Source: Pararhizobium sp. IMCC3301 (lineage in GTDB: Bacteria > Pseudomonadota > Alphaproteobacteria > Rhizobiales > GCA-2746425). From it: a stretch of 64,000 nt of DNA. The notes under the pieces are model-generated. The model ran no database searches. It was not told the origin of the DNA and saw only the letters and a program-made list of their open reading frames with translations. The stretch spans positions 1,550,001 to 1,614,000 of the forward strand of contig NZ_CP132336.1 in the NCBI RefSeq assembly GCF_030758315.1. The letters run 5' to 3'. The position numbers were made by a program, and so were the translations under genes. How positions within the stretch are numbered: the stretch's first letter is position 1; each line of letters starts with the position of its first letter. Positions 36,549 to 51,433 of this stretch are shown one piece after another.

Positions 36549-37298
36549 TCACGCAATGGCGGCAATGGCGGATCTGATCAACGATCGGATGTGAGCGACC
36601 ACAGTGCGGCGGACCAGCTTGCCGTCCTTCTGCTCCAGCGCGTCAAGAATGGCATCATGTTCGCGTGAATCCGGATCCAGTCGATCGGTCAGTCGGTCGA
36701 TTTCGAACAATTGCGTGGTAATCCGCAGCGATCGGAGCGTGTCTTGCATCACCTCGTTGCTGCAATTGCGGATAAAGAGTTCATGAACCAGATCGTCGCA
36801 TTTCAAATGTTCAAGATAATCATAGGGTTGTGTCGCCCGGAGGCTGTCGAGTGCGGTGCGCGCATCGTGCAGCTCTCTGGGGCTAACGCGGTCGGTCGAC
36901 AGAAACGCGGCTTCGGGTTCGAGGATCTCGCGCACGCGCAGGCTTTGCAGATATTCAGCAACATTGACTTTTCGCACGAGATAGGACCGCCCGCCCGATT
37001 TGACCAGAAGCCCCTCGATCTCAAGCCGCTGCAACGCCTGACGCAAGGGCGTGCGGGACAGCCCCAGGTGCTCTGCGAGATGCTGCTCCACAATGGCCTC
37101 GCCGCTTTTCAGCTTACGTTCGCGTATCATCACGGCCAGAGTTTCATACGCCATGTCCGACAGTTTTCGGACTGCCGGGCGGTGTAGAATCGTGGTGGGT
37201 TTCGCCTTGGAAATTTGATGATTCACCGAGCCGTTCCTATCGGATTGCGCCCGCCAAATGCGGGAATCACTGAATATATGCGTACCGTTTTTTGACAT
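36549..37298 (-). CDS. GntR-family regulator (FCD/FadR subfamily)
   Basis: 249 residues from the ATG at 37298; a GTG at 37226 with AGGA upstream would give a 225-residue protein and is a good alternative. Winged HTH (about residues 45-110): VEQHLAEHLGLSRTPLRQALQRLEIEGLLV in part. The C-terminal FCD helical domain contains the metal/ligand residues in REILEPEAAFLS, CDDLVHELFIRNCSNE and REHDAILDALEQKD. FCD regulators answer to small carboxylates. It is divergent from the nine-gene region that starts with the M20-like gene and is its likely regulator. Confidence 0.9.
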   Translation of the reverse strand: MSKNGTHIFSDSRIWRAQSDRNGSVNHQISKAKPTTILHRPAVRKLSDMAYETLAVMIRERKLKSGEAIVEQHLAEHLGLSRTPLRQALQRLEIEGLLVKSGGRSYLVRKVNVAEYLQSLRVREILEPEAAFLSTDRVSPRELHDARTALDSLRATQPYDYLEHLKCDDLVHELFIRNCSNEVMQDTLRSLRITTQLFEIDRLTDRLDPDSREHDAILDALEQKDGKLVRRTVVAHIRSLIRSAIAAIA

Positions 37299-37521
37299 TT
37301 TATAAGGGAATTCTTCGCTGTATGTATATCGTCAAATCACATGCCCCACCTATGCAATGCCCGCCGAGAGGCGCAGAATGCAAGAAAAAAACGGTTTTGC
37401 GCGTGACAAAATATTGCAACGCAGCATGAAAAAAAGCCGTACATCCCTCCAGAAAAAAGTTGCATTGAAAATAGAAACTGGCATGTTTCGTATACCAACG
37501 GTGTCCCAAAAGGTAATTTCA

Positions 37522-38829
37522 ATGACCGCCGAGAGCCCCGACAAAGCCGCAGATGCACGTGCCATTTCTTTCCTGCGGGATTTGATCGCGGCGCAGGCTG
37601 ACGGTGAATCTGCGGTCCAGAAAGTGATCGTTGAGCGGTTGACCGCAGCGGGCTGCGAAATTTCCGAACTCACCTATGACCCGTCAACTGTTCCAGCGAT
37701 CGGGGATTTTGGAACCGGTGCCAAACAGGCGTCGGGCGCGCGAACGGCTGTCGTCGGCACCTATAAAGGCGATCCGGGCAAATGCAGCCTGCTGGTCTTT
37801 GCACATCCTGACGGCGAGAAACTCCAGACCGATCACGGTTGGGAGCGCGATCCCTTTGCCGGCACCATCGACAAGGGGCGCATCTACGGCTGGGGCGTGG
37901 CCGACGATCTGGCCGGATGCGCAGCCGCCGTTCTCGCCATCGAAGAGGCTGCGCGCGTCGGCACATCGCTGGGCACCGTCGTCTTTGCCAGTACGCCGAG
38001 CAAGAAAAATGCCCGTGGCGTTGCGGCCCTGCTACACGAAGGCCTTTCGGCCGACGCCAGCCTTTACCTGCACCCTGCCGAATCTGGCGTTGGCATGCAG
38101 GAGATCAAGGCGGTAACGCCGGGCCATCTGGATCTGAAGATCGTGGTGCCCGGTCGTCTGCCGGACACGAACGAACCCAGTCACACCGCGTTTTCGCACC
38201 GCGCGGTCAATCCGGTGGACAAGGCGATATTGATCATTGCCGCGTTGCAGACTTTGGCCGAGGCTCGGGTGGCGCAGATCAGCCATCCGATGATCGATGC
38301 CTTTGTCGGCCGGTCGACCAATATTCTTGTGTCATATGTCAAAAGCGGCAACGCGGCCAGATTCTCCCGCGTACCCGAACTGTGCGAACTGGGTGTCGCC
38401 ATCTCATTCCCGCCCCATGAGACAATGCGCGAGGTTCAGGACGAGATCGAGGCTGCGCTGAAGGCTTGTTTCGACGCCGATCCATGGTTGGCGGAACATA
38501 GTCCCACGCTGGAATGGCTGTCGGGTTCGACCGGGGCCGAAGTGCCGCATGACCATCCGCTTTTCTGCGTGGCCAGCAACGCGGTCCAGCACGTGACCGG
38601 TAAAATCCCCTTCGTCAACCCGCTTCACGCGGCCAGCGACATTCGCAACCCGGCCGTTGAAAAGGGTATTCCGACCGTCGCCTTCGGCGGTCTTTGTGGT
38701 GATCTGACCCAGAATGACAAACGCGACGAATGGGTCGACGTGGCCGATTTCCATCGCATGGTCAGGGCCACCACCGAAGTCGTCACCAACTGGTGCGCAC
38801 GTTCCCGCAACGCCGGGTGCGGCAAATAA
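37522..38829 (+). CDS. M20-like metallohydrolase with altered active site
   Basis: 435 residues from the ATG at 37522 (AAAAGG eight bases upstream). The fold follows M20 deacylases/peptidases: LLVFAHPDGEK gives H95 and D97; GRIYGWGVADDLAG gives D128; LYLHPAES gives E187; and NPLHAASDIRNP gives the C-terminal histidine. In canonical members two adjacent glutamates follow the metal-bridging aspartate; here that place reads FASTPSKKNARG, without acids. It might be a divergent hydrolase or a non-catalytic homologue. First gene of the operon; deacylation or hydrolysis of an N-acyl amino-acid derivative is the natural guess. Confidence 0.75.
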   Translation: MTAESPDKAADARAISFLRDLIAAQADGESAVQKVIVERLTAAGCEISELTYDPSTVPAIGDFGTGAKQASGARTAVVGTYKGDPGKCSLLVFAHPDGEKLQTDHGWERDPFAGTIDKGRIYGWGVADDLAGCAAAVLAIEEAARVGTSLGTVVFASTPSKKNARGVAALLHEGLSADASLYLHPAESGVGMQEIKAVTPGHLDLKIVVPGRLPDTNEPSHTAFSHRAVNPVDKAILIIAALQTLAEARVAQISHPMIDAFVGRSTNILVSYVKSGNAARFSRVPELCELGVAISFPPHETMREVQDEIEAALKACFDADPWLAEHSPTLEWLSGSTGAEVPHDHPLFCVASNAVQHVTGKIPFVNPLHAASDIRNPAVEKGIPTVAFGGLCGDLTQNDKRDEWVDVADFHRMVRATTEVVTNWCARSRNAGCGK

Positions 38830-38878: not shown

Positions 38879-39730
38879 ATGAACATCCCCAGAACCCAAG
38901 TTTCACTGGTGGCTGCCGCATTTGCGGCTTTTTTTGCCCAACCACTAATGGCAATGGAATGCCCCGAGAACCTGCCGCTGATCGAGCCGGGCAAGTTGAC
39001 CATGTCAATCAACGCCACGCTGCCCCCAATTCAGTACATCGACAACAACGGCGAACTGGTCGGTCTCAATCGCGACATGGGTGACGAGATCGCCAAGCGC
39101 ATGTGCCTCGAGCCCAAATATATCAACGTCAGCTTTGAGGTCCAAATTCCCGGCCTTGCCTCAGACCGTTGGGACATGATCAACACCGGGTTGTTCTACA
39201 CAGAGGACCGCACCAAGATCATGCATCTTATTCCGGTCCGTGTGGTGGCGCTTGCGATGATCGCGCAGGGTGGAAATCCGCTTAATCTGAAGAGCCCCGA
39301 GGATCTAGCGGGACGCGTCGTCGGTGTCGAAATTGCCGGTGCCGAGGAAAAGCAGTTGCGCGCACTGAACGACAAACAGGTCGCAAACGGCATGGAGCCA
39401 ATGGATATTCGCGTGTTCAACAACTACGGCGATGCCTTCCTTGCGCTTAGCGCGGGCCAGGTTGACGCGATCTTCGCGGCCGACAGCACCGGCGCCTATT
39501 ACCAGAAACGCGGTCAGTTCACCATGGCGGCCACTGGTCTTTTGGCCGGCACCGCAACCACGATGGCCGTGGACGAAGAGGCAACGGCGCAGGCGATCGT
39601 CGACGCGCTTAACGAGATGCTCGAGGACGGCACCTATGATCGGCTGATGGAAAATTCGGGCGCGACCAAGGTCGATGCTTGGTCAAAGTGGTCAGGCAAG
39701 TTCGAGTATCACTACAACCCCGACTCCTAA
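38879..39730 (+). CDS. Polar amino-acid ABC transporter substrate-binding protein (SBP_bac_3)
   Basis: 283 residues, ATG at 38879 with AGGAG upstream. Signal peptide up to LMA-M. The mature protein follows the family plan: KLTMSINATLPPIQYIDNNGELVGLNRDMGDEIAKRM (key part GLNRDMGDEIA), GLASDRWDMINTGLFYTEDR, VGVEIAGAEEKQLRAL, GDAFLALSAGQVDAIFAADS. It has four cysteines, two near the N-terminus (ECPENL and CLEPKY). The ligand is an amino acid or relative. A strong hairpin separates it from the permease gene. Confidence 0.9.
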   Translation: MNIPRTQVSLVAAAFAAFFAQPLMAMECPENLPLIEPGKLTMSINATLPPIQYIDNNGELVGLNRDMGDEIAKRMCLEPKYINVSFEVQIPGLASDRWDMINTGLFYTEDRTKIMHLIPVRVVALAMIAQGGNPLNLKSPEDLAGRVVGVEIAGAEEKQLRALNDKQVANGMEPMDIRVFNNYGDAFLALSAGQVDAIFAADSTGAYYQKRGQFTMAATGLLAGTATTMAVDEEATAQAIVDALNEMLEDGTYDRLMENSGATKVDAWSKWSGKFEYHYNPDS

Positions 39731-39744
39731 TCCGTTTTCTCCCT

Positions 39745-39776
39745 GTGGGCAGGAGGGCAATCGGCCCCCTGCCCAC
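39745..39776 (+). terminator. Strong intercistronic hairpin after the binding-protein gene
   Basis: GTGGGCAGGAGG pairs with CCCCCTGCCCAC (39765-39776) over 12 bases with one mismatch and an eight-base loop. There is no T-run after it, so it more likely stabilises the upstream message or partly stops transcription to favour binding protein over permease. Confidence 0.6.
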
Positions 39777-39831
39777 TTCAAGCCATTGCCTTCCCCAAAG
39801 CAAGGCAAACTCAACATAAGGACTGTGTACA

Positions 39832-40584
39832 ATGCAATGGAGCTGGGAATACTTCTTCCAATATCTCTTCAGCGGCTACATGGTCGAAGGGGTCTGGACG
39901 ACGGTTTGGCTGGCTGTGGTGTCGATGATCATCGGCGTCACGCTGGGCGTCGTACTGGCTTTTATGAAAATGTCACAGACGCGCGTCCTGCGCGCAATCG
40001 CCAACACCTATATCTGGCTCTGGCGCGGCACACCGCTGCTGGTGCAGATGGTCATCATCTATACTGGTCTGCCGCAGGTGGGGATCAGGCTGGGGGTGGT
40101 CGAATCCGCAATTCTGGCCCTGTCACTGCACGAGGGCGCCTATTTTGCTGAAATTGTCCGCTCGGGCATCATGTCGGTAAACAAGGGGCAAGAAGACGCC
40201 TCACGTGCGCTGGGAATGAAATGGGCACAACGTATGCGAATCGTCATTCTTCCCCAGGCGACCCGCGTTATCATTCCCCCTTTGGGCAACCAGTTCAACC
40301 TGATGCTTAAAACCACGTCGCTGGCCTCGGTCATCTCGATGGAAGAGCTGTTGCGCCACGCCCAGCAGCTTGCGCAGATCGAGTTCCGTGTACTCGAAGT
40401 CTATCTGGTTGCTGCCTGCTGGTACATTCTGCTGACGACGATCTGGGGACAGATCCAACAGCGACTCGAAAACCATTACGACAAACCCTTCGGTCCGGCC
40501 GGAAAACCGGAAGATCCAAAAGATGGTGGCGAGGACTCGCCGTTGAAGAACCCGCTGAAAAACCCCGTCGCGGACCAGATCTGA
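39832..40584 (+). CDS. Polar amino-acid ABC transporter permease (HisMQ type)
   Basis: 250 residues. About five membrane segments. N-terminal [20 protein letters not shown] and [17 protein letters not shown] are typical of His/Glu/Asp-type permeases. The coupling loop is [25 protein letters not shown], with its EAA-like glycine. A charged tail after residue 220 ([23 protein letters not shown] in part) is unusual for the family. One permease gene alone implies a homodimer. Confidence 0.91.
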
Positions 40585-40621
40585 CCACCGCCTTCTACTG
40601 CCGCCTCTAAGGAGAACTGAC

Positions 40622-41440
40622 ATGGCCGACACGCCAACGATCACCCCCGTCGAGAAACCGCGCCAGTTGGGAGAGCCGATCGTAGAGATCAAGAACCTGG
40701 CCAAGGCCTTTCACGGTATCGAGGTGTTGAAGGACATATCTCTAACGGTCCGCCAGGGCGAAGTCATCGTGATCGCCGGACGCTCGGGTTCGGGCAAGTC
40801 GACGCTCCTGCGCTGCATCGACCATCTTGAAACGATCGACGGCGGGTCGATCGTCGCCTGCGAGCATCTGATCGGCTTTCGCAAGGGTCCGGGCGGCAAG
40901 CTGGTGCCGCTGTCAGACAAGCAGATCGCGATCCAACGCCGCGATTTAGGCATGGTATTCCAAAGCTTCAACCTGTTTCCACATCTCAGCGTGCAGGACA
41001 ATATCACCGTGGGGCCGGTGAAGATCATGGGGGTGGATCGCGCCATCGCTGTCCGTGAAGCCAAAGAGCTTTTGGCCCGCGTCGGGTTGCCCGAGAAAGG
41101 CAACGCCTATCCGTCGCAGCTTTCCGGTGGGCAACAGCAACGTGTCGCAATCGCGCGGGCTCTGGCCATGAAGCCCAAGGTGATGCTCTTTGACGAGCCG
41201 ACGTCCGCGCTTGATCCCGAGATGATTTCAGAAGTTCTGGACGTGATGGTCGACCTGTCGCGGCAGGGCATGACCATGATCGTCGTCACCCATGAAATGG
41301 GTTTTGCACGGGCTGCCGCAGATCGCGTCGTGTTGATGCATGCCGGCAAGATCGTCGAGGAAGCAGACCCCGAGACTTTCTTCAACAATCCCAAGAGCGA
41401 GCACACGCAGCTTTTCCTGTCCAAGATACTTCAGCATTGA
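40622..41440 (+). CDS. Polar amino-acid ABC transporter ATP-binding protein
   Basis: 272 residues. Walker [18 protein letters not shown]-loop [14 protein letters not shown], signature [15 protein letters not shown], Walker [33 protein letters not shown]. This is the GlnQ/HisP class. A proline-rich leader (about 20 residues: [16 protein letters not shown]) precedes the domain. An insertion of about 15 residues, [15 protein letters not shown], follows Walker A at the position where HisP-type ATPases carry a short loop. Completes the importer. Confidence 0.94.
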
Positions 41441-41449
41441 GGCAGATAC

Positions 41450-42466
41450 GTGGGATTGATACGCACAGTCTTGGGGGATGTGGCAGCCGGGGATGTCGGA
41501 CTGATCCAGTTTCACGAGCATGTCCTTTTCGATATCGTGCCGCCTGGTGCGAACGGCGACACTGCGGCGGAAATCCTGCCATGGGACCGCTTCCAGACCG
41601 ACTATCTTTCGAACGTCAATCCGGCCAATGCACATCAGACCGATGTGACCATTGCGGCGGCGGAACTGCGTGCCTTTGCCGCTGCAGGCGGAAGCCTGAT
41701 CGTCGATCAGTCGGTTGCCGGTCTGGCGCGCGATGCCGCCGGACTGGCGGAAGCATCCCGCGCCAGCGGCGTGCATGTGGTAGCCGCGGCGGGCACCTAT
41801 ACCGCGCCCTTTCTTGACGCAGCACAGATCGCTATGACCACCGCCGAGATGGCCGATCTCTTTACAGCAGAGATCAAAACCGGACTGGATGACACAAAGG
41901 TCCGCGCCGGCCTGATCGGTGAGATCGGCTGTTCCTGGCCGCTTGAGCCGGTCGAACACCGCGCCCTTCTGGCGGCTGTGGACGCGCAGCACAGGACAGG
42001 CGCATCGATCAGCGTTCATCCTGGCCGCGACCCCGGTGCCTGCCTGCAGATCATCGACATTCTGGGCACCGCTGGGGCAGACCTGTCACGCGTCGTCCTG
42101 TGCCACATGGATCGCACCTATCCCGATGGCACTGGCGTCGCCGCCCTTCTGGATCAGGGCATCTGCGTGGAGTGGGATTTTTTCGGCATCGAACAGTCCC
42201 ATTACTGGATGGGGGATGTGGAACTGCCTACCGACAGATGCCGTCTGCGCCTGATCGACGCGATGGTCGCGGCGGGTCATGGGGACCGCATCGTCATTTC
42301 CCACGACATCTGTACCCGCACCAGGCTGCGGCACTGGGGCGGGCATGGCTATGGGCATGTTCTGACCAATGTCGTGCCGCTCATGCGCCGCCTCGGATTC
42401 GATCCGGCGACAATACAAAATCTTGTACGCGACACGGCGTTGCGACTGCTTACCCTCAAGGAGTGA
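41450..42466 (+). CDS. Phosphotriesterase-family amidohydrolase
   Basis: 338 residues, GTG start at 41450 with GAGGCA upstream. TIM-barrel metal enzyme: H22-x-H24 in FHEHVLF, E158 in LIGEIGCSWPL where phosphotriesterases usually carry the carboxylated lysine, H190 in SVHPGRD, H219 in LCHMDRTYPDGTG and D286 in SHDICTR. Glutamate bridging is known in the PHP/lactonase subgroup. Likely a lactonase, esterase or deacylase for a compound handled by this operon. It sits nine bases after the ATPase gene. Confidence 0.85.
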   Translation: MGLIRTVLGDVAAGDVGLIQFHEHVLFDIVPPGANGDTAAEILPWDRFQTDYLSNVNPANAHQTDVTIAAAELRAFAAAGGSLIVDQSVAGLARDAAGLAEASRASGVHVVAAAGTYTAPFLDAAQIAMTTAEMADLFTAEIKTGLDDTKVRAGLIGEIGCSWPLEPVEHRALLAAVDAQHRTGASISVHPGRDPGACLQIIDILGTAGADLSRVVLCHMDRTYPDGTGVAALLDQGICVEWDFFGIEQSHYWMGDVELPTDRCRLRLIDAMVAAGHGDRIVISHDICTRTRLRHWGGHGYGHVLTNVVPLMRRLGFDPATIQNLVRDTALRLLTLKE

Positions 42467-42470
42467 TTTA

Positions 42471-43367
42471 ATGACCAAAAGGATCCGGGGCACGTTTTCA
42501 GTGATGGTGACGGCATTCGATGGCAATGGTGCCGTCGATCTAAAAGCGATGGCGGCCTTTACCGAATGGCAAGTCGCAGAAGGCATCCACGGGTTGATAC
42601 CGCTGGGCTCGACCGGCGAATTCCTGTCGATGACGGATGCCGAGCGTCACGATGTCGCCAAATGCGTGATTGATACGGTCAATGATCGGGTGCCGGTGTT
42701 CATCGGCACGGGCGCGGAATATACCGATGACGTGATCCGCTATTCCCAGCAGGCCGAGGCGCTGGGTGCCGATGGCGTGATGATCATTCCACCCTTCTAC
42801 TCAACTCCGACCGAGGACGAACTGTTCGAACATTTCCGCCGCATTGCCGAAGCAATCACGATTCCTGTCATGCTTTACAACAATCCCGCGACGGCCAATA
42901 TTGATTTGACACCCGCCATCGTGGCTCGGCTTTCGACCATTCCCAGGGTCGATTACATCAAGGAATCGACGATGGATGTGACCCGCGTGCGCGACATCCT
43001 TGATCTGTGCGGCGACCGGATGACGGTGTTTGGCGGTATCATGGGCTATGAATCTTTCATGAACGGGGCAGAGGGTTGGATCGCCGTCGGCTCGAATTTG
43101 ATGCCGCGCGAATTCTCGCGCCTGTTTGAACTGTCGGTGGATGAACAGGATATCGACGCCGCGCGTGCGCTTTATCGGCAGATCCTGCCGGTGATCCGGT
43201 TGGTCGGCGGTCACCGCTACGTCGCCGCAACCAAGTCGGGGCTGGGGATGCTGGGTCATGCGGTCGGCAAGCCGCGTGCGCCGCGACTGCCTACGCCCGA
43301 TGCCGAGATTGACAATGTCCGCGCAGCGCTGATTGCGGCGGGGATCACGCCACAGCAGACGGTCTGA
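42471..43367 (+). CDS. DapA-family (DHDPS/NAL) aldolase or deaminase
   Basis: 298 residues from the ATG at 42471 behind AAGGAG. TIM barrel with PLGSTGEF (about 44-51), Y136 in MLYNNPATAN and the Schiff-base lysine K164 in DYIKEST. The arginine that binds the distal carboxylate of aspartate-semialdehyde in true dihydrodipicolinate synthases is T141 here, so lysine synthesis is not its task. Relatives include KDG/KDGA aldolases, N-acetylneuraminate lyase and pyrroline-4-hydroxy-2-carboxylate deaminase of the hydroxyproline route. The adjacent flavoenzyme makes the last of these worth testing. Confidence 0.87.
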   Translation: MTKRIRGTFSVMVTAFDGNGAVDLKAMAAFTEWQVAEGIHGLIPLGSTGEFLSMTDAERHDVAKCVIDTVNDRVPVFIGTGAEYTDDVIRYSQQAEALGADGVMIIPPFYSTPTEDELFEHFRRIAEAITIPVMLYNNPATANIDLTPAIVARLSTIPRVDYIKESTMDVTRVRDILDLCGDRMTVFGGIMGYESFMNGAEGWIAVGSNLMPREFSRLFELSVDEQDIDAARALYRQILPVIRLVGGHRYVAATKSGLGMLGHAVGKPRAPRLPTPDAEIDNVRAALIAAGITPQQTV

Positions 43368-43369
43368 TC

Positions 43370-46288
43370 TTGCCACAAAATAACCACCCCGAAGCGGACC
43401 CGGCAGCCAGCAACATGGACGGCTTCGGGTTTCGTTTCGATGGACAAAAGATAGACGCGCGCAAGGGAGATAGTATTGCCGCGGCCTTGACCGCATCGGG
43501 CATCGCCCGGTTCCGCCGCACGATATCAGGAGAGCAGCGGGGCCTGTTCTGTGGCATGGGCGTCTGCAACGATTGTCTGGTCGAAGTGGACGGCGTGAGA
43601 TCGCGCCGCGCCTGCATGACGCAGGTCGAACAGGGGATGGAAGTTTCCAGTCAGGATGACACCCGTTTGGGAGCGCTGCGTGAAGCGCTGCCCGCCCTGC
43701 CCGAACAGCTTGAGACGGCGGATGTCTTGATCGTCGGGGCGGGGCCGGCAGGATTGACGGCTGCGCTTGAGTGTTGCCGGATGGAGGCAACCGTGATCGT
43801 GGTGGACGAGCGCGATGCTGCCGGTGGGCAGTATTTCAAACCCCGCAGCGAGGGTGCACGGCATGTAGATGCGCAAGATGTCCAGCACCGGGCAGGCAAT
43901 GCGCTGAGGGCAGCGGCAACCGCCGCTGGAGTGCGCATATTGCAGCACCATACCGTATGGTATGCACGCCACGACAAGGCTGCCAAGGACATGGGCGGTT
44001 TTGAGCTGCGCACCACCGGCACCGGCGGGCGGTGCCGCCTTTCCGGCAAGACACTGATTGTGGCCACTGGGGCCTATGAGCTGCCGGCCATAGTGCCTGG
44101 CTGGACGCTGCCGGGGGTGATGACGATCGGCGCAGGCCAAACGCTGGTACGCCGCTATGGTGTGGCGCCAGGTTCGCGGACTCTGATCGCGGGCAATGGA
44201 CCGCTTGGCCTGCAACTGGCGGCAGAACTTACGACCATCGGTGGAAAGGTCGTCGCGGTTGCCGAGCGGTCGCAGTTGCGGCCGGGAGGCGCGATGTTGC
44301 GGGCGGCGCTGGCAGCACCCCGTCTGGTCGCTACTGGTGTCGGTTATCAGCTGCGTCTGCGGCGCGACCGGGTGCCGCTGTTGAATGGCTGGGAAGTGAC
44401 CGGGATCGCCGCGAGCGGCGACGCCCTCGACGTTGATCTGTCACAGATTGGTGCATCCGGTATGCGCCGGGTGCGCGCCGACGCAGTCTGTATGGGCGAT
44501 GGTTTTGCCCCCCAAGCCGAACTGTTGCGGCTTCTGGGCTGCAGCTTCGAAATGCGGGACGGCGTGCCACGGCCAGTCCGGGACACACAATGTGAAACCG
44601 ACATTCCGGGCCTTTTTGTGGCAGGCGATGCCGGAGGGCTCGGTGGCGCACAACTAGCGCTGCAACAAGGGAAAACCGCCGCGCAGGCCGCATTGACCCG
44701 GCTGGGGCAATCGGTCATGATCGACCCGAATATGACGGCACGCGTGGCCCGGATTGGCAGGTTTCAATCCGCGCTTTGGCAGCTTTACAAGGCGCCGTCA
44801 CCCGATATCACCTCTGCCCCTGGCGACTTACTGATCTGCCGTTGCGAATCCGTATCGTTGGGGCAGGTGCGCCAAGCAATCGACGCAGGGGCGCGAGACG
44901 CGGGTGCGGTCAAGCGCGCGACCCGCCTGGGCATGGGGCGTTGCCAGGGGCGTTACTGCACACGGCCCTTGGTCGCACTTTTGCAGAATGTCGGTCCAGA
45001 GGTCCGGGCAGATACGCTCTTTGCACCACAACTGCCCGTACGTCCTCTGTCCATTTGCGCAGTGGCACTTGAAAAACCCGAATGGGCCGGTCACCGTGAA
45101 AGCAGCCCCGTCGCGCGCCCCGCGCCAAAGGACAAAGCACCGCTGGGCCGTGAAACCGCTGATCTGGTGGTCATCGGTGCAGGTGTCACTGGTTTGGCAG
45201 CGGCACTGTTTGGCGCTCAGGCCGGAGCTTCGGTTATCTGTCTTGACCAGGGACGCCTGAATGCAGAGGCCTCGGGCGGCAATGCCGGAAGCCTACATCT
45301 GCAGCTTCTTTCATGGGATTTTGGCAGCAAGGCCTTTGCCGGCGGCTCCGCTGCGCTGCGCACGTTACCGTTGCAACAAGAAAGCATTGCGCTCTGGTCT
45401 CAGCTGCAAGACGAACTTGGCGGCAATTTCGAGATGGCGGTGACTGGCGGTATGATGGTGGCGGAAAGCCCTGACCAGATCGCCTTTCTGGAAGCCAAGG
45501 TTTCCGCAGAGGCCAGCGTTGATATCCATTCCGAAGTAATCGGTCCTGATCGCATCCGCGCGATCGCGCCTCATTTATCGGACCGCATCGTAGCGGCCGC
45601 ATGGTGTCCGGGTGAAGGCAAGATCAACCCCCTGCCCGCCTCTGCAAGCCTCGCCGCTGCGGCCCGCGCAGCAGGCGCGTTGATCGAAGAGCTGGCCTCG
45701 GTGACGGGCATCGTGCAGGACGGCAATGGCTATGTGATCGAGACCGGGCGCGGTCAGATCCGCACGCGTCGGCTGGTGATCGCTGCGGGTGGCTGGTCGG
45801 CTCAGATCGGGCGTCATCTTGGCGTTGCTCTGCCAATCCGGGGCGCACCGCTCCAGATGCTGGTGACGGAGCCCGCGCCGCCACTGGTTCCATGCCTTCT
45901 GGCCCATGCAGACCGGCATCTGACGATGAAACAATCCCACAGCGGCACCATTATCATTGGCGGGGCGTGGCCTGCGGAAACCGGTCCCGCCGGACAGGCG
46001 CGGGTGCTGCCCGATAGTATTGAAGGCAACCTTTGGGTGGCCCAGCATACTCTGCCGGCACTGAGCACTTTCAAGCTGGTGCGCAGTTGGGCTGCCATGA
46101 ACATCGATATCGATGGCGCGCCTTTGTTGTCTGCAATACCGGGGCATCCGCGTGTCGTCGTTGCGGCCACGGCCAATGGCTATACTCTGGGCCCGCTGAT
46201 GGGCCGCGAGGCCGCAGCACTGGCGCTTGGTCGAGACCTACCGACGCGACTGCACCCCTTCACACTAGAACGATTTAAAACCAGCTAA
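43370..46288 (+). CDS. Three-part flavoenzyme: 2Fe-2S + FAD/BFD + DAO domains (HcnABC/LhpBEF-like fusion)
   Basis: 972 residues, TTG start at 43370 two bases after the dapA-like stop; an ATG at 43415 is an alternative. Part 1 (about 18-95): plant-type 2Fe-2S ferredoxin with C61, C66, C69 and C82 (LFCGMGVCNDCLVEVDG). Part 2 (about 115-470): two-dinucleotide flavoprotein with VLIVGAGPAGLTAALE and LIAGNGPLGLQLAAEL, closing with FVAGDAGGLGG; then a BFD-type 2Fe-2S segment (about 485-535) with LICRCESV and GMGRCQGRYC. Part 3 (about 594-972): D-amino-acid-oxidase fold with LVVIGAGVTGLAAALF and NGYTLGPLMGREA. In hydrogen cyanide synthase and D-hydroxyproline dehydrogenase these parts are three subunits. 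Predicted membrane-linked oxidation of an amino acid or amine. No internal stops or frameshift. Confidence 0.88.
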   Translation: MPQNNHPEADPAASNMDGFGFRFDGQKIDARKGDSIAAALTASGIARFRRTISGEQRGLFCGMGVCNDCLVEVDGVRSRRACMTQVEQGMEVSSQDDTRLGALREALPALPEQLETADVLIVGAGPAGLTAALECCRMEATVIVVDERDAAGGQYFKPRSEGARHVDAQDVQHRAGNALRAAATAAGVRILQHHTVWYARHDKAAKDMGGFELRTTGTGGRCRLSGKTLIVATGAYELPAIVPGWTLPGVMTIGAGQTLVRRYGVAPGSRTLIAGNGPLGLQLAAELTTIGGKVVAVAERSQLRPGGAMLRAALAAPRLVATGVGYQLRLRRDRVPLLNGWEVTGIAASGDALDVDLSQIGASGMRRVRADAVCMGDGFAPQAELLRLLGCSFEMRDGVPRPVRDTQCETDIPGLFVAGDAGGLGGAQLALQQGKTAAQAALTRLGQSVMIDPNMTARVARIGRFQSALWQLYKAPSPDITSAPGDLLICRCESVSLGQVRQAIDAGARDAGAVKRATRLGMGRCQGRYCTRPLVALLQNVGPEVRADTLFAPQLPVRPLSICAVALEKPEWAGHRESSPVARPAPKDKAPLGRETADLVVIGAGVTGLAAALFGAQAGASVICLDQGRLNAEASGGNAGSLHLQLLSWDFGSKAFAGGSAALRTLPLQQESIALWSQLQDELGGNFEMAVTGGMMVAESPDQIAFLEAKVSAEASVDIHSEVIGPDRIRAIAPHLSDRIVAAAWCPGEGKINPLPASASLAAAARAAGALIEELASVTGIVQDGNGYVIETGRGQIRTRRLVIAAGGWSAQIGRHLGVALPIRGAPLQMLVTEPAPPLVPCLLAHADRHLTMKQSHSGTIIIGGAWPAETGPAGQARVLPDSIEGNLWVAQHTLPALSTFKLVRSWAAMNIDIDGAPLLSAIPGHPRVVVAATANGYTLGPLMGREAAALALGRDLPTRLHPFTLERFKTS

Positions 46289-46304: not shown

Positions 46305-46718
46305 ATGACAGAAGTTATCATCGAGGCAGGCCCCTTCACTTTCGGCGCACGGTTTGAAACAAAGGACGCGCCCGAAACCTGCCGCGCCTTCATGGCACGG
46401 ATGCCTTATGAGGCTGAATTGGTGCATGTCCGCTGGTCGGGAGAAGGGGTCTGGGTGCCCCTTGGCGACTACGATTTCGGCGTCGGCTATGAGAACCACA
46501 CAAGCCATCCCGCCCCAGGTCAGTTTCTGCTTTATCCAGGCGGCATCAGCGAGACTGAAATCATTCTATGCTACGGCGGCATGGATTTCTCATCGAAGAT
46601 GGGGCAACTGGCGGGTAATCACTTCATCACCATCCATACGGGGCTGGAAAATCTCCGCGCACTTGGCGAACGGGTACTGTGGAAGGGGGCACAGCCAGTG
46701 CGTTTTACGCTGAAGTGA
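46305..46718 (+). CDS. DUF3830 protein (cyclophilin-like fold)
   Basis: 137 residues. Begins TEVIIEAGPFTFGARFETKDAPETC (key part ETKDAPETCRAF), with the family blocks VHVRWSGEGVWVPLGDYDFG, HPAPGQFLLYPGGISETEIIL and GNHFITIHTGLENL, all of DUF3830 (cyclophilin-like beta-barrel). Members occur next to amidohydrolases and amino-acid transporters; no reaction is established as far as I know. Last gene of the operon, 16 bases after the flavoenzyme. Confidence 0.8.
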   Translation: MTEVIIEAGPFTFGARFETKDAPETCRAFMARMPYEAELVHVRWSGEGVWVPLGDYDFGVGYENHTSHPAPGQFLLYPGGISETEIILCYGGMDFSSKMGQLAGNHFITIHTGLENLRALGERVLWKGAQPVRFTLK

Positions 46719-48640: not shown

Positions 48641-49519
48641 TCAGCGCGTCGGAACAGGTTCGTCGCCGCGATAATCGTAAAATCCGCGATTGGTCTTTCG
48701 GCCAAGCCAACCGGCCTCAACATATTTCACCAGCAGCGGACAAGGCCGGTATTTGCTGTCTGCCAGGCCTTCATAAAGCACCTGCATGATCGACAGACAG
48801 GTATCAAGGCCAATGAAATCAGCCAGTTGCAGCGGGCCCATGGGGTGGTTGGCACCCAGCTTCAAAGCCGTGTCAATTGCCTCGACGGAGCCCACACCTT
48901 CATACAGCGTATAAATCGCTTCATTGATCATCGGCATCAGAATGCGGTTGACGATAAAGGCCGGAAAATCTTCGGCCACAGTGATGGTTTTCCCCATCCC
49001 CTGAACATATTTTTTAGCTGCCTCAAAGGTTTCGTCTTCAGTCGCAATGCCGCGCACCAGTTCCACCAGCTTCATGATCGGAACAGGATTCATGAAATGG
49101 ATTCCCATGAAGCGTTCCGGACGGTCCGTTGCGGCCGCAAGCCGGGTGATCGAAATGGATGATGTATTGGATGCAATCATCGCTTCGGGTTTCAGCACCG
49201 GACAGAGCGCCGCAAAGATTTTCCGTTTGACGGTTTCATCTTCGGTCGCAGCTTCAATCGCCAGATCGACTTCGGCCAGACCTTCCATGCCTTTCGAGGC
49301 ATGCAGCTTTGCCACTGCGGTATCCCGTTCTTTTTCGCTGATCTGCCCCTTGCTTAATTGCCGCCCCAGATTCCCCGTGATGGTCGCAAGGCCTTCTTCA
49401 ATGCGGTCTTCGGAGACGTCATACATGTAGACATCATAACCGGACAGAGCACTGACATGGGCAATTCCCGAACCCATCTGGCCTGCGCCGATAATGCCTA
49501 TGGATTTTATTTCAGTCAT
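48641..49519 (-). CDS. hbd: 3-hydroxybutyryl-CoA dehydrogenase
   Basis: 292 residues from the ATG at 49519 (GGAAAG upstream). NAD loop IGIIGAGQMGSGIAHV, then ASNTSSISITRLA with the catalytic serine, HFMNPVPIMKLVELV with the histidine, and the helical C-terminal domain GANHPMGPLQLADFIGLD. It oxidises (S)-3-hydroxybutyryl-CoA to acetoacetyl-CoA. Gene order hbd-etfA-etfB is common in Rhizobiales, tying it to electron-transfer flavoprotein. Confidence 0.94.
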   Translation of the reverse strand: MTEIKSIGIIGAGQMGSGIAHVSALSGYDVYMYDVSEDRIEEGLATITGNLGRQLSKGQISEKERDTAVAKLHASKGMEGLAEVDLAIEAATEDETVKRKIFAALCPVLKPEAMIASNTSSISITRLAAATDRPERFMGIHFMNPVPIMKLVELVRGIATEDETFEAAKKYVQGMGKTITVAEDFPAFIVNRILMPMINEAIYTLYEGVGSVEAIDTALKLGANHPMGPLQLADFIGLDTCLSIMQVLYEGLADSKYRPCPLLVKYVEAGWLGRKTNRGFYDYRGDEPVPTR

Positions 49520-49727
49520 AGTTCTTTCCGGTCTTAGTCTTGTGGGAGCTAGGGACAGGACTGTGTTGCACCGCAGCAGAATTTGCAATCGGTTTTTTAT
49601 CGGCTCCAGCAGCATGATACCCAAAAGCGTGTGCTACGGGAAGCCATGCCATGTGGCGGCAACCAGACCAACGCAAACCGCCGGAGCCACACCTGAGGAA
49701 TCGGCCACTTGCCTGACGAAATTGCGC

Positions 49728-50669
49728 TCAGGAGGTCTTGTCGAGTTCTGCTACCAGCTGTGGAAGCACTTCAAACAGATCGGCGACCAGCCCATAATCC
49801 GCAACCTGAAAAATCGGTGCTTCATCATCCTTGTTGATGGCGACGATGACCTTGCTGTCCTTCATGCCGGCCAGGTGCTGAATCGCGCCCGATATGCCGC
49901 ATGCTATATAAAGATCCGGCGCAACCACCTTGCCGGTCTGTCCGACCTGCCAGTCATTCGGCGCGTAACCGGCGTCAACCGCAGCCCGCGAGGCTCCGAC
50001 AGCCGCTCCAAGCTTGTCGGCGACCGGCATGATCACCTCCTGGAATTTTTCTGACGAACCCAGGGCACGGCCCCCGGAAATGATGATTCTGGCGGACGTC
50101 AATTCCGGACGTTCCGACTTCGACACATCTTCTCCGACATAGGATGACAGGCCAGGCCCCTCATCACCGGATACGCTTTCGACAGAAGCTGAGCCACCCT
50201 CTTCAGCGACGGCAAAGGCCGCCGTCCGGATGGTGATGACCTTGATGGCATCGCGGGACTGAACCGTCTGGATCGCATTGCCGGCATAGATCGGCCGCTC
50301 GAATGTATCAGCGCTGATAATTGCAGTGATGTCAGACACCTGCATGACATCCAGCAGCGCTGCCGCGCGCGGCATGATGTTCTTTCCATTGGTGGTATTG
50401 GCAGCCACAAGTGCTGTATAATCTCCGGCAAGTGAGACAACCAGCGCCGCCATCGGCTCTGCCAGCAGATGGTCATAGGCGGCGGCATCACAATGCAGCA
50501 CCTTTTCCACACCGCTGATCCTGGCCGCATGCGCTGCCGCCTCGGCACTGCCACTGCCTGCAACCAGCACATGCAGGGGTGCGTCCAAATCTGCCGCCGC
50601 GGTGATAGCGCGCAATGTCGGGTCGTTGAGCACAGTTCCGTCGTGATCTGCTATCAGCAAAGTTGTCAT
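49728..50669 (-). CDS. etfA: Electron-transfer flavoprotein alpha subunit
   Basis: 313 residues. The N-terminal alpha/beta half is followed by the FAD-binding C-terminal domain: SGGRALGSSEKFQEV, GAAVGASRAAVDAGYAPNDWQVGQTG (parts), LYIACGISGAIQHLAGM, IVAINKDDEAPIF and ADYGLVADLFEVLPQL. This is the standard EtfA signature set. It accepts electrons from acyl-CoA dehydrogenases and passes them to ETF:quinone oxidoreductase. Fourteen bases downstream of etfB. Confidence 0.95.
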   Translation of the reverse strand: MTTLLIADHDGTVLNDPTLRAITAAADLDAPLHVLVAGSGSAEAAAHAARISGVEKVLHCDAAAYDHLLAEPMAALVVSLAGDYTALVAANTTNGKNIMPRAAALLDVMQVSDITAIISADTFERPIYAGNAIQTVQSRDAIKVITIRTAAFAVAEEGGSASVESVSGDEGPGLSSYVGEDVSKSERPELTSARIIISGGRALGSSEKFQEVIMPVADKLGAAVGASRAAVDAGYAPNDWQVGQTGKVVAPDLYIACGISGAIQHLAGMKDSKVIVAINKDDEAPIFQVADYGLVADLFEVLPQLVAELDKTS

Positions 50670-50683
50670 GGCTCTGCCTTTCC

Positions 50684-51433
50684 TTAAAGTACGTTGGCTT
50701 CGTTGCGTAATTTGTCAACCAGTTCGGCCACATTGGCAACCTTGACACCGGCTTCCCGCTTCTGCGGCTCGACGGTCTTCAGAACGTTCAGGCGCGGCGT
50801 CATATCAACTCCGTAATCCGCTGCCGTTTTCATATCGATCGGCTTTTTCTTGGCCTTCATGATATTCGGCAGCGACGCGTAGCGCGGTTCATTGAGACGC
50901 AGATCGGTGGTCACCACCGCCGGAAGTTTCAGTTTGATTGTCTGCAGCCCGCCATCAACTTCGCGGGTCACATTCATATCCCCTTCGCCCAGCGACAGCA
51001 CAGAGGCGAAAGTGCCCTGGGACCAGCCCAGAAGAGCTGCCAGCATCTGGCCGGTCTGGTTGCAATCATCATCAATCGCCTGTTTTCCGGCAATCACCAG
51101 ATCGGGCTTTTCCTCATCGACAATTTTTTGCAGAATTTTTGCCACCGCCAGCGGTTCGACCAGGTCGTCATGCTGCACCAGAATGCCGCGATCAGCCCCC
51201 ATCGCCAGTGCCGTGCGGATGGTTTCCTGAGCCTGCTGCGGACCGATTGAAACCACAACGATTTCACTGGCTTTGCCGGCTTCGCGCAACCGCAATGCTT
51301 CCTCGACGGAAATTTCATCAAACGGGTTCATCGCCATTTTTACATTGGCCAGTTCAACGCCCGATCCATCCGTTCTAACCCGGATTTTGACATTGTAGTC
51401 AACCACCCGCTTAACGGGCACCAGTATTTTCAT
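50684..51433 (-). CDS. etfB: Electron-transfer flavoprotein beta subunit
   Basis: 249 residues. [19 protein letters not shown] at the N-terminus, [15 protein letters not shown], the AMP-binding region [18 protein letters not shown], and [21 protein letters not shown] with the family's EtfB signature (parts quoted). Pairs with etfA. The promoter region upstream holds two copies of a TTTGTAGC element on either side of a hairpin. Confidence 0.96.

Follow-up and report, generated by a model that had tools for sequence, protein, structure and literature searches.

A conserved single-chain member of the alpha-beta-gamma dehydrogenase superfamily, encoded with a DapA-family partner in an uncharacterised catabolic operon

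INTRODUCTION

The octopine dehydrogenase OdhABC carries two FAD, a 2Fe-2S cluster and one FMN that lies between alpha and beta; it acts as a dye-linked dehydrogenase, not as an oxidase (PMC4575208). The same study describes the gamma 2Fe-2S motif of the superfamily as C-x4-C-x2-C-x11-12-C and the alpha BFD motif as C-x-C...C-x4-C, the latter with a spacing given in the text as x15-20. The archaeal L-proline dehydrogenase is a known case in which a gamma-like region is joined to alpha (PMC4575208).

Here we have analysed a 64,000-nucleotide stretch of the Pararhizobium sp. IMCC3301 genome (contig NZ_CP132336.1, positions 1,550,001 to 1,614,000; hereafter the window), in which one gene encodes gamma, alpha and beta modules together. 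Text searches of the open-access literature found no described three-subunit fusion.

RESULTS

One reading frame carries the three modules

The gene and the modules of its product are the following:

43370..46288, plus strand: single-chain gamma-alpha-beta flavoenzyme, 972 aa from TTG or 957 aa from ATG 43415
43430..43657, plus strand: gamma module, Fer2_4 2Fe-2S domain, residues 21-96, with C61/C66/C69/C82 (Pfam 2.5e-25)
43721..44671, plus strand: alpha module, Pyr_redox_2 FAD domain, residues 118-434 (Pfam 3.8e-28)
44831..44986, plus strand: alpha module, BFD-like 2Fe-2S domain, residues 488-539 (Fer2_BFD, Pfam 3.0e-11)
44987..45145, plus strand: alpha/beta junction, residues 540-592, alpha tail APQxPxRPV...EKPEWGGHRES running into beta (alignment)
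45161..46222, plus strand: beta module, DAO-fold FAD domain, residues 598-951, with an R-x-W motif assigned to FMN (Pfam 9.5e-59)

The ORF runs unbroken in one frame for 972 codons from the TTG at 43370. The in-frame ATG at 43415 (957 codons) is a second possible start, and the homologues begin approximately there. We looked for a break in the frame and found none between 43370 and 46288; frame continuity, already proposed in the sequence-only reading, extended to the 42 fused ORFs of 42 loci. The Pfam search returned Fer2_4, Pyr_redox_2, Fer2_BFD and DAO in this order along the chain, in agreement with the initial description of a ferredoxin domain, an FAD flavoprotein with a BFD tail and a DAO module in one protein. 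Since this one chain bears gamma, alpha and beta, the 1:1:1 stoichiometry that had been suggested is fixed.

The cysteines C61-x4-C66-x2-C69-x12-C82 are present as first described and match the superfamily gamma motif. Those of the BFD-like domain are arranged as C490-x-C492-x32-C525-x4-C530, and the spacing of x32 lies within the 27-33 that we measured in split alphas of the family. Among the aligned fused homologues (n = 29; 36-63% identical to the window protein), all eight cluster cysteines (C61/66/69/82 and C490/492/525/530), the glycines of both FAD (GxGxxG, ADP-binding) motifs and the FMN motif R890-x-W892 (ATG numbering) were invariant or nearly so. The fusion therefore has the two GxGxxG motifs and the beta R-x-W of the superfamily, and differs from the described enzymes in being one chain instead of three (or two) separate subunits. 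These motifs suggest a cofactor content of two FAD, one FMN and Fe-S clusters, with FMN binding predicted from R-x-W and homology. One homologue (L046) had been considered to contain DAO and alpha modules only; this was discarded once its Fer2 domain proved to be complete in the full alignment.

A proline- and charge-rich linker had been described at the second junction (~540-592). This segment is not a foreign linker: the first half of the junction is the conserved C-terminal tail of alpha itself (APQxPxRPV...), which also terminates separate alpha subunits. A near-complete alpha thus runs straight into beta.

The predicted fold matches L-proline dehydrogenase

The AlphaFold2 model, obtained with a 27-row alignment as input, had a mean pLDDT of 85.6 and a pTM of 0.88. 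In Foldseek searches the front half matched 1y56_A, the alpha chain of the Pyrococcus horikoshii L-proline dehydrogenase (TM 0.78 by target length), and also SoxA. The rear half matched the beta chain of the same enzyme, 1y56_B (TM 0.85 by target length), and also SoxB. None among the 50 matches listed spanned all modules with a good score. Based on its architecture, the kept cofactor motifs and the match of the model to the alpha and beta chains of L-proline dehydrogenase, the fusion is a single-chain member of the alpha-beta-gamma dehydrogenase superfamily, which comprises D-hydroxyproline, opine and L-proline dehydrogenases and HCN synthase. Domains, motifs and predicted fold all supported the original proposal of one chain that unites the three modules (gamma, alpha and beta) found in the HcnABC/LhpBEF/OdhABC superfamily. 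NCBIfam provided no name above its curated cut-off for the fused oxidoreductase or its DapA partner, and PADLOC gave no relevant match.

The fusion is conserved in dozens of species and uncommon in genome samples

A scan of one genome per species, queried with short peptides of the window protein and yielding lower-bound counts, found the fusion in at least 41 loci. With further loci added, 42 had a complete three-module ORF, in Devosia, Kaistia, many Rhodobacterales, Hyphomicrobiales, Acetobacteraceae, Thalassospira, Vibrio, Granulosicoccus and others, so that the search for proteins of the same architecture, advised at the outset, reached dozens of species. On complete plasmids of Aureimonas, Azospirillum and Agrobacterium vitis the fusion is a single CDS with no name beyond FAD-dependent oxidoreductase; Rhizobium and Variovorax plasmids gave single-piece matches that cover nearly all of the chain. 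It is nevertheless uncommon, being present in 2 of 384 other genomes of the class and in 3 of 397 others of the Pseudomonadota (even genome samples). We also looked for a clean split into separate genes in close relatives, and the nearest relatives were fused too.

In the alpha trees, all joined gamma-alpha proteins fell on one side of a branch with support of 92-94, apart from the separate alphas. Six loci have a two-gene form, with gamma-alpha joined and beta separate (L064, L065, L067, L092, L142 and L147); a DapA homologue also occurs near two-gene forms. Because these forms sit inside the same alpha clade, gamma and alpha were probably joined before beta was added. One common origin of the beta fusion, with the three-module rows held together, was not rejected by the alpha (p 0.059) or beta (p 0.43) data, and the trees would accommodate either one or two such events.

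On the Ti plasmid pTiCFBP4996 (L092, 11121-16395) the gamma-alpha fusion and separate beta occur with RidA and a saccharopine dehydrogenase-family gene, a set that is possibly an uncharacterised opine-type pathway. The plasmid forms of Paracoccus aminophilus (L142, 8034-18012) and Antarctobacter (L147, 3105-19475) lie beside 3-hydroxyacyl-CoA dehydrogenase, SDRs and DapA homologues, a setting that points to another conserved pathway for this type of enzyme.

Three-gene enzymes coexist with the fusion in some genomes. The window genome has a three-gene version (C1:1846476-1849184), only 31-39% identical to the fusion. This alpha/beta/gamma dehydrogenase (with its flanks, L103, 7644-14497) has its own, different DapA homologue, and its other neighbours are a CoA-transferase, a gluconolactonase-like protein, a beta-keto acid cleavage enzyme and a tripartite tricarboxylate transporter. 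In ten Acetobacteraceae loci (L036, L037, L041, L042, L044, L047, L049, L050, L052 and L059), one-chain and three-gene enzymes lie ~10 kb apart or less, each with a DapA homologue, and a TonB receptor gene is present in most.

The fusion has a constant DapA-family partner and amide hydrolases of varying family

The neighbours of the fusion gene in the window, identified by profile matches and locus comparison except where indicated, are the following:

36549..37298, minus strand: GntR/FCD regulator, divergent
37357..38829, plus strand: M20 ArgE/DapE-like deacylase/peptidase
38879..41440, plus strand: polar amino-acid type ABC transporter (binding protein, permease, ATPase)
41450..42466, plus strand: PTER-like phosphotriesterase-family hydrolase (profile match, PDB match)
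42369..43367, plus strand: DapA-family protein, constant genomic partner of the fusion, likely true start ATG 42471
46305..46718, plus strand: DUF3830 protein with predicted cyclophilin-like fold (profile match, structure model)

Within its clade this operon is conserved with hardly a gene changed. In other clades the M20 and PTER-like genes are replaced by a dihydropyrimidinase-type hydantoinase, or, in Acetobacteraceae, by another M20 with a TonB receptor; further clades have TRAP or other transporters, plus an amidase. Amide hydrolases of varying family (M20, PTER-like, hydantoinase) thus recur beside the fusion, and together with the PAAT transporter and DUF3830 they are its usual companions. 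We conclude that the fusion is a real, conserved single-chain variant of a three-subunit enzyme class, located in an uncharacterised catabolic operon.

A DapA-family protein accompanies the fusion in every locus with readable flanks. The homologue is at least 55% identical in 39 of the 42 loci; as to the exceptions, L026 ends with its contig, L062 is short and has a 61% homologue on a longer stretch, and L063/L107 have a 30% homologue. The partner keeps the catalytic Tyr of YNNP and Lys of IKEST. It departs from DHDPS in having Thr at the Arg138 position (YNNPATANxD), both in the window and in nearly all fusion loci. Its best PDB match, 3na8, was considered as a possible LhpC; this was rejected, since 3na8 is PA0223, a protein without DHDPS activity (PMC3281039).

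The closest PDB match of the PTER-like protein is 9efa, named phosphotriesterase-related protein. By residue count on the alignment, it keeps the equivalents of mouse PTER H26, H28, E169, R204, R233 and Y263, with Cys for H300, so that this relative of mammalian PTER retains the metal ligands and the two substrate arginines. The mouse enzyme is an N-acetyltaurine hydrolase that also acts, at a lower rate, on other N-acetyl amino acids (PMC11374699).

DUF3830 surpasses even the fusion in conservation, with a mean column identity of 83%. It is present in 26 of the 42 fusion loci, and RidA in none of them. Its predicted fold is near those of 3kop, TM1367 and the Pictet-Spenglerase KslB, and a literature search found no paper on this family. 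Downstream, on the opposite strand (48641-51433), the window has ORFs that look like 3-hydroxybutyryl-CoA dehydrogenase and EtfA/EtfB, for which no link to the fusion is claimed.

DISCUSSION

We propose that the fusion is a dye-linked dehydrogenase for an amide-masked amino acid, the product of which goes to the DapA-like lyase, and give this proposal as a whole a probability of about 0.6. Such a substrate fits because the recurring theme of these loci is amide removal, amine oxidation and a Schiff-base lyase. The ABC transporter would take up an N-acylated or cyclic-amide amino acid, from which the amine would be liberated by amide hydrolases, the M20 and PTER-like enzymes in the window and a hydantoinase or M20 in other loci. 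The C-terminal DAO module would then oxidise the C-N bond of this amine at FAD, with the electrons passing to FMN at the alpha/beta interface, through two 2Fe-2S clusters and then, instead of to O2, to a respiratory acceptor. The adjacent Schiff-base DapA-family enzyme would receive the imine or 2-oxo product for cleavage, dehydration or deamination, and the fusion would serve to fix both the stoichiometry and the FMN interface. We infer this order of steps and this electron path (FAD, FMN, 2Fe-2S, acceptor); by homology, electron channelling through the clusters is plausible. Since the operon partners differ between clades, these may serve different substrates.

A more specific version of this proposal is offered tentatively, at odds that we put somewhat below even. 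The single-chain enzyme may represent a new substrate class, dehydrogenating an amino acid that interchangeable hydrolases free from its cyclic or N-acyl amide. The catabolic pathway would be one not yet described, in which the enzyme works with a DapA-family lyase dedicated to it and with the cyclophilin-fold protein DUF3830; the latter perhaps handles an unstable imine in RidA's place.

Among the alternatives, the one that survives best, which we regard as unlikely, is an opine (secondary amine) dehydrogenase akin to OoxAB/NoxAB/OdhABC that would cleave an N-carboxyalkyl amino acid. The common superfamily, the polar amino-acid transporter and the two-gene relative on a Ti plasmid are compatible with it. 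However, the octopine and nopaline enzymes formed separate clades in our trees, the RidA gene of the octopine operon is missing from all 42 fusion loci, the ornithine cyclodeaminase marker matched only one of them, and the opine operons examined had no conserved DapA.

It is more doubtful still that the fusion is a D-hydroxyproline dehydrogenase of the LhpBEF type. Hydroxyproline loci are known to place an LhpBEF-type dehydrogenase beside a deaminase of the DHDPS family (PMC4113996), and we found one 4HypE-beta-gamma-alpha-DapA cluster on a Caballeronia plasmid. Nevertheless, the 42 fusion loci contain no epimerase (a proline racemase-family gene), and the window genome has its two genes of this family (C1:1208601 and C1:3851315) hundreds of kb off, near neither the fused nor the three-gene dehydrogenase. 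The epimerase-linked enzymes fell outside the fusion clade in both alpha and beta trees, where they are represented by two references only, on long branches; the epimerase-cluster DapA is just 23% identical to that of the fusion, and amide hydrolases are foreign to that pathway. The proline racemase loci of Azospirillum and Paraburkholderia had no three-gene enzyme. The tie to hydroxyproline drawn in the sequence-only reading found no support in the epimerase, tree and DapA evidence.

The tie to cyanide formation fared worse: a one-chain hydrogen cyanide synthase converting glycine to cyanide would share the superfamily and module set, but the transporter, amide hydrolases and DapA-like lyase conserved around the fusion are catabolic and ill-suited to cyanogenesis, making this reading very improbable. 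That an assembly or sequencing artefact merged three genes, as most superfamily relatives have, deserves practically no credence and is already refuted by the same fusion in 42 loci of independent assemblies, complete plasmids included.

Enzymes of several subunits are hard to express as complexes, and a PDB sequence search yielded no solved structure for the three-gene LhpBEF/OdhABC forms. With a naturally single-chain version, the structure of the superfamily and its electron path could be approached in a practical way, and such a protein might find use on electrodes as a dye-linked dehydrogenase in one piece. The conserved, DUF3830-containing operon would mark a widespread, undescribed catabolic pathway.

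Comparison with known systems

The best template for both halves is PDH1, the archaeal dye-linked L-proline dehydrogenase of Pyrococcus horikoshii (PDB 1y56). Its alpha chain already contains the gamma-like N-terminal region, and FMN lies between its alpha and beta. PDH1 has two chains versus one in the fusion, the identity is only about 20-22%, and the substrate of the fusion need not be proline. The heterotetrameric sarcosine oxidase (PDB 2gag, 1vrq) is comparable in that SoxA starts with a Fer2/Pyr_redox-type region and SoxB is a DAO-fold subunit. However, SoxA is a 965-residue chain reaching well past the matched region, SoxB is separate, and the KHDH segment of SoxB is missing from the fusion at the aligned position.

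The opine dehydrogenases OdhABC/OoxAB/NoxAB have the gamma, alpha and beta modules and the cofactor motifs in common with the fusion, and the enzyme on pTiA6 also adjoins an amino-acid type transporter. They differ in their three separate genes, their own clade and their RidA, cyclodeaminase and arginase neighbours, without a conserved DapA. LhpBEF, from the same superfamily, is likewise paired with a DapA-family (DHDPS-family) deaminase, but its three genes lie beside an epimerase, its DapA partner is the distant one described above and it falls outside the fusion clade. Relative to these systems, the new points are the addition of beta to gamma-alpha, the dedicated DapA partner and DUF3830.
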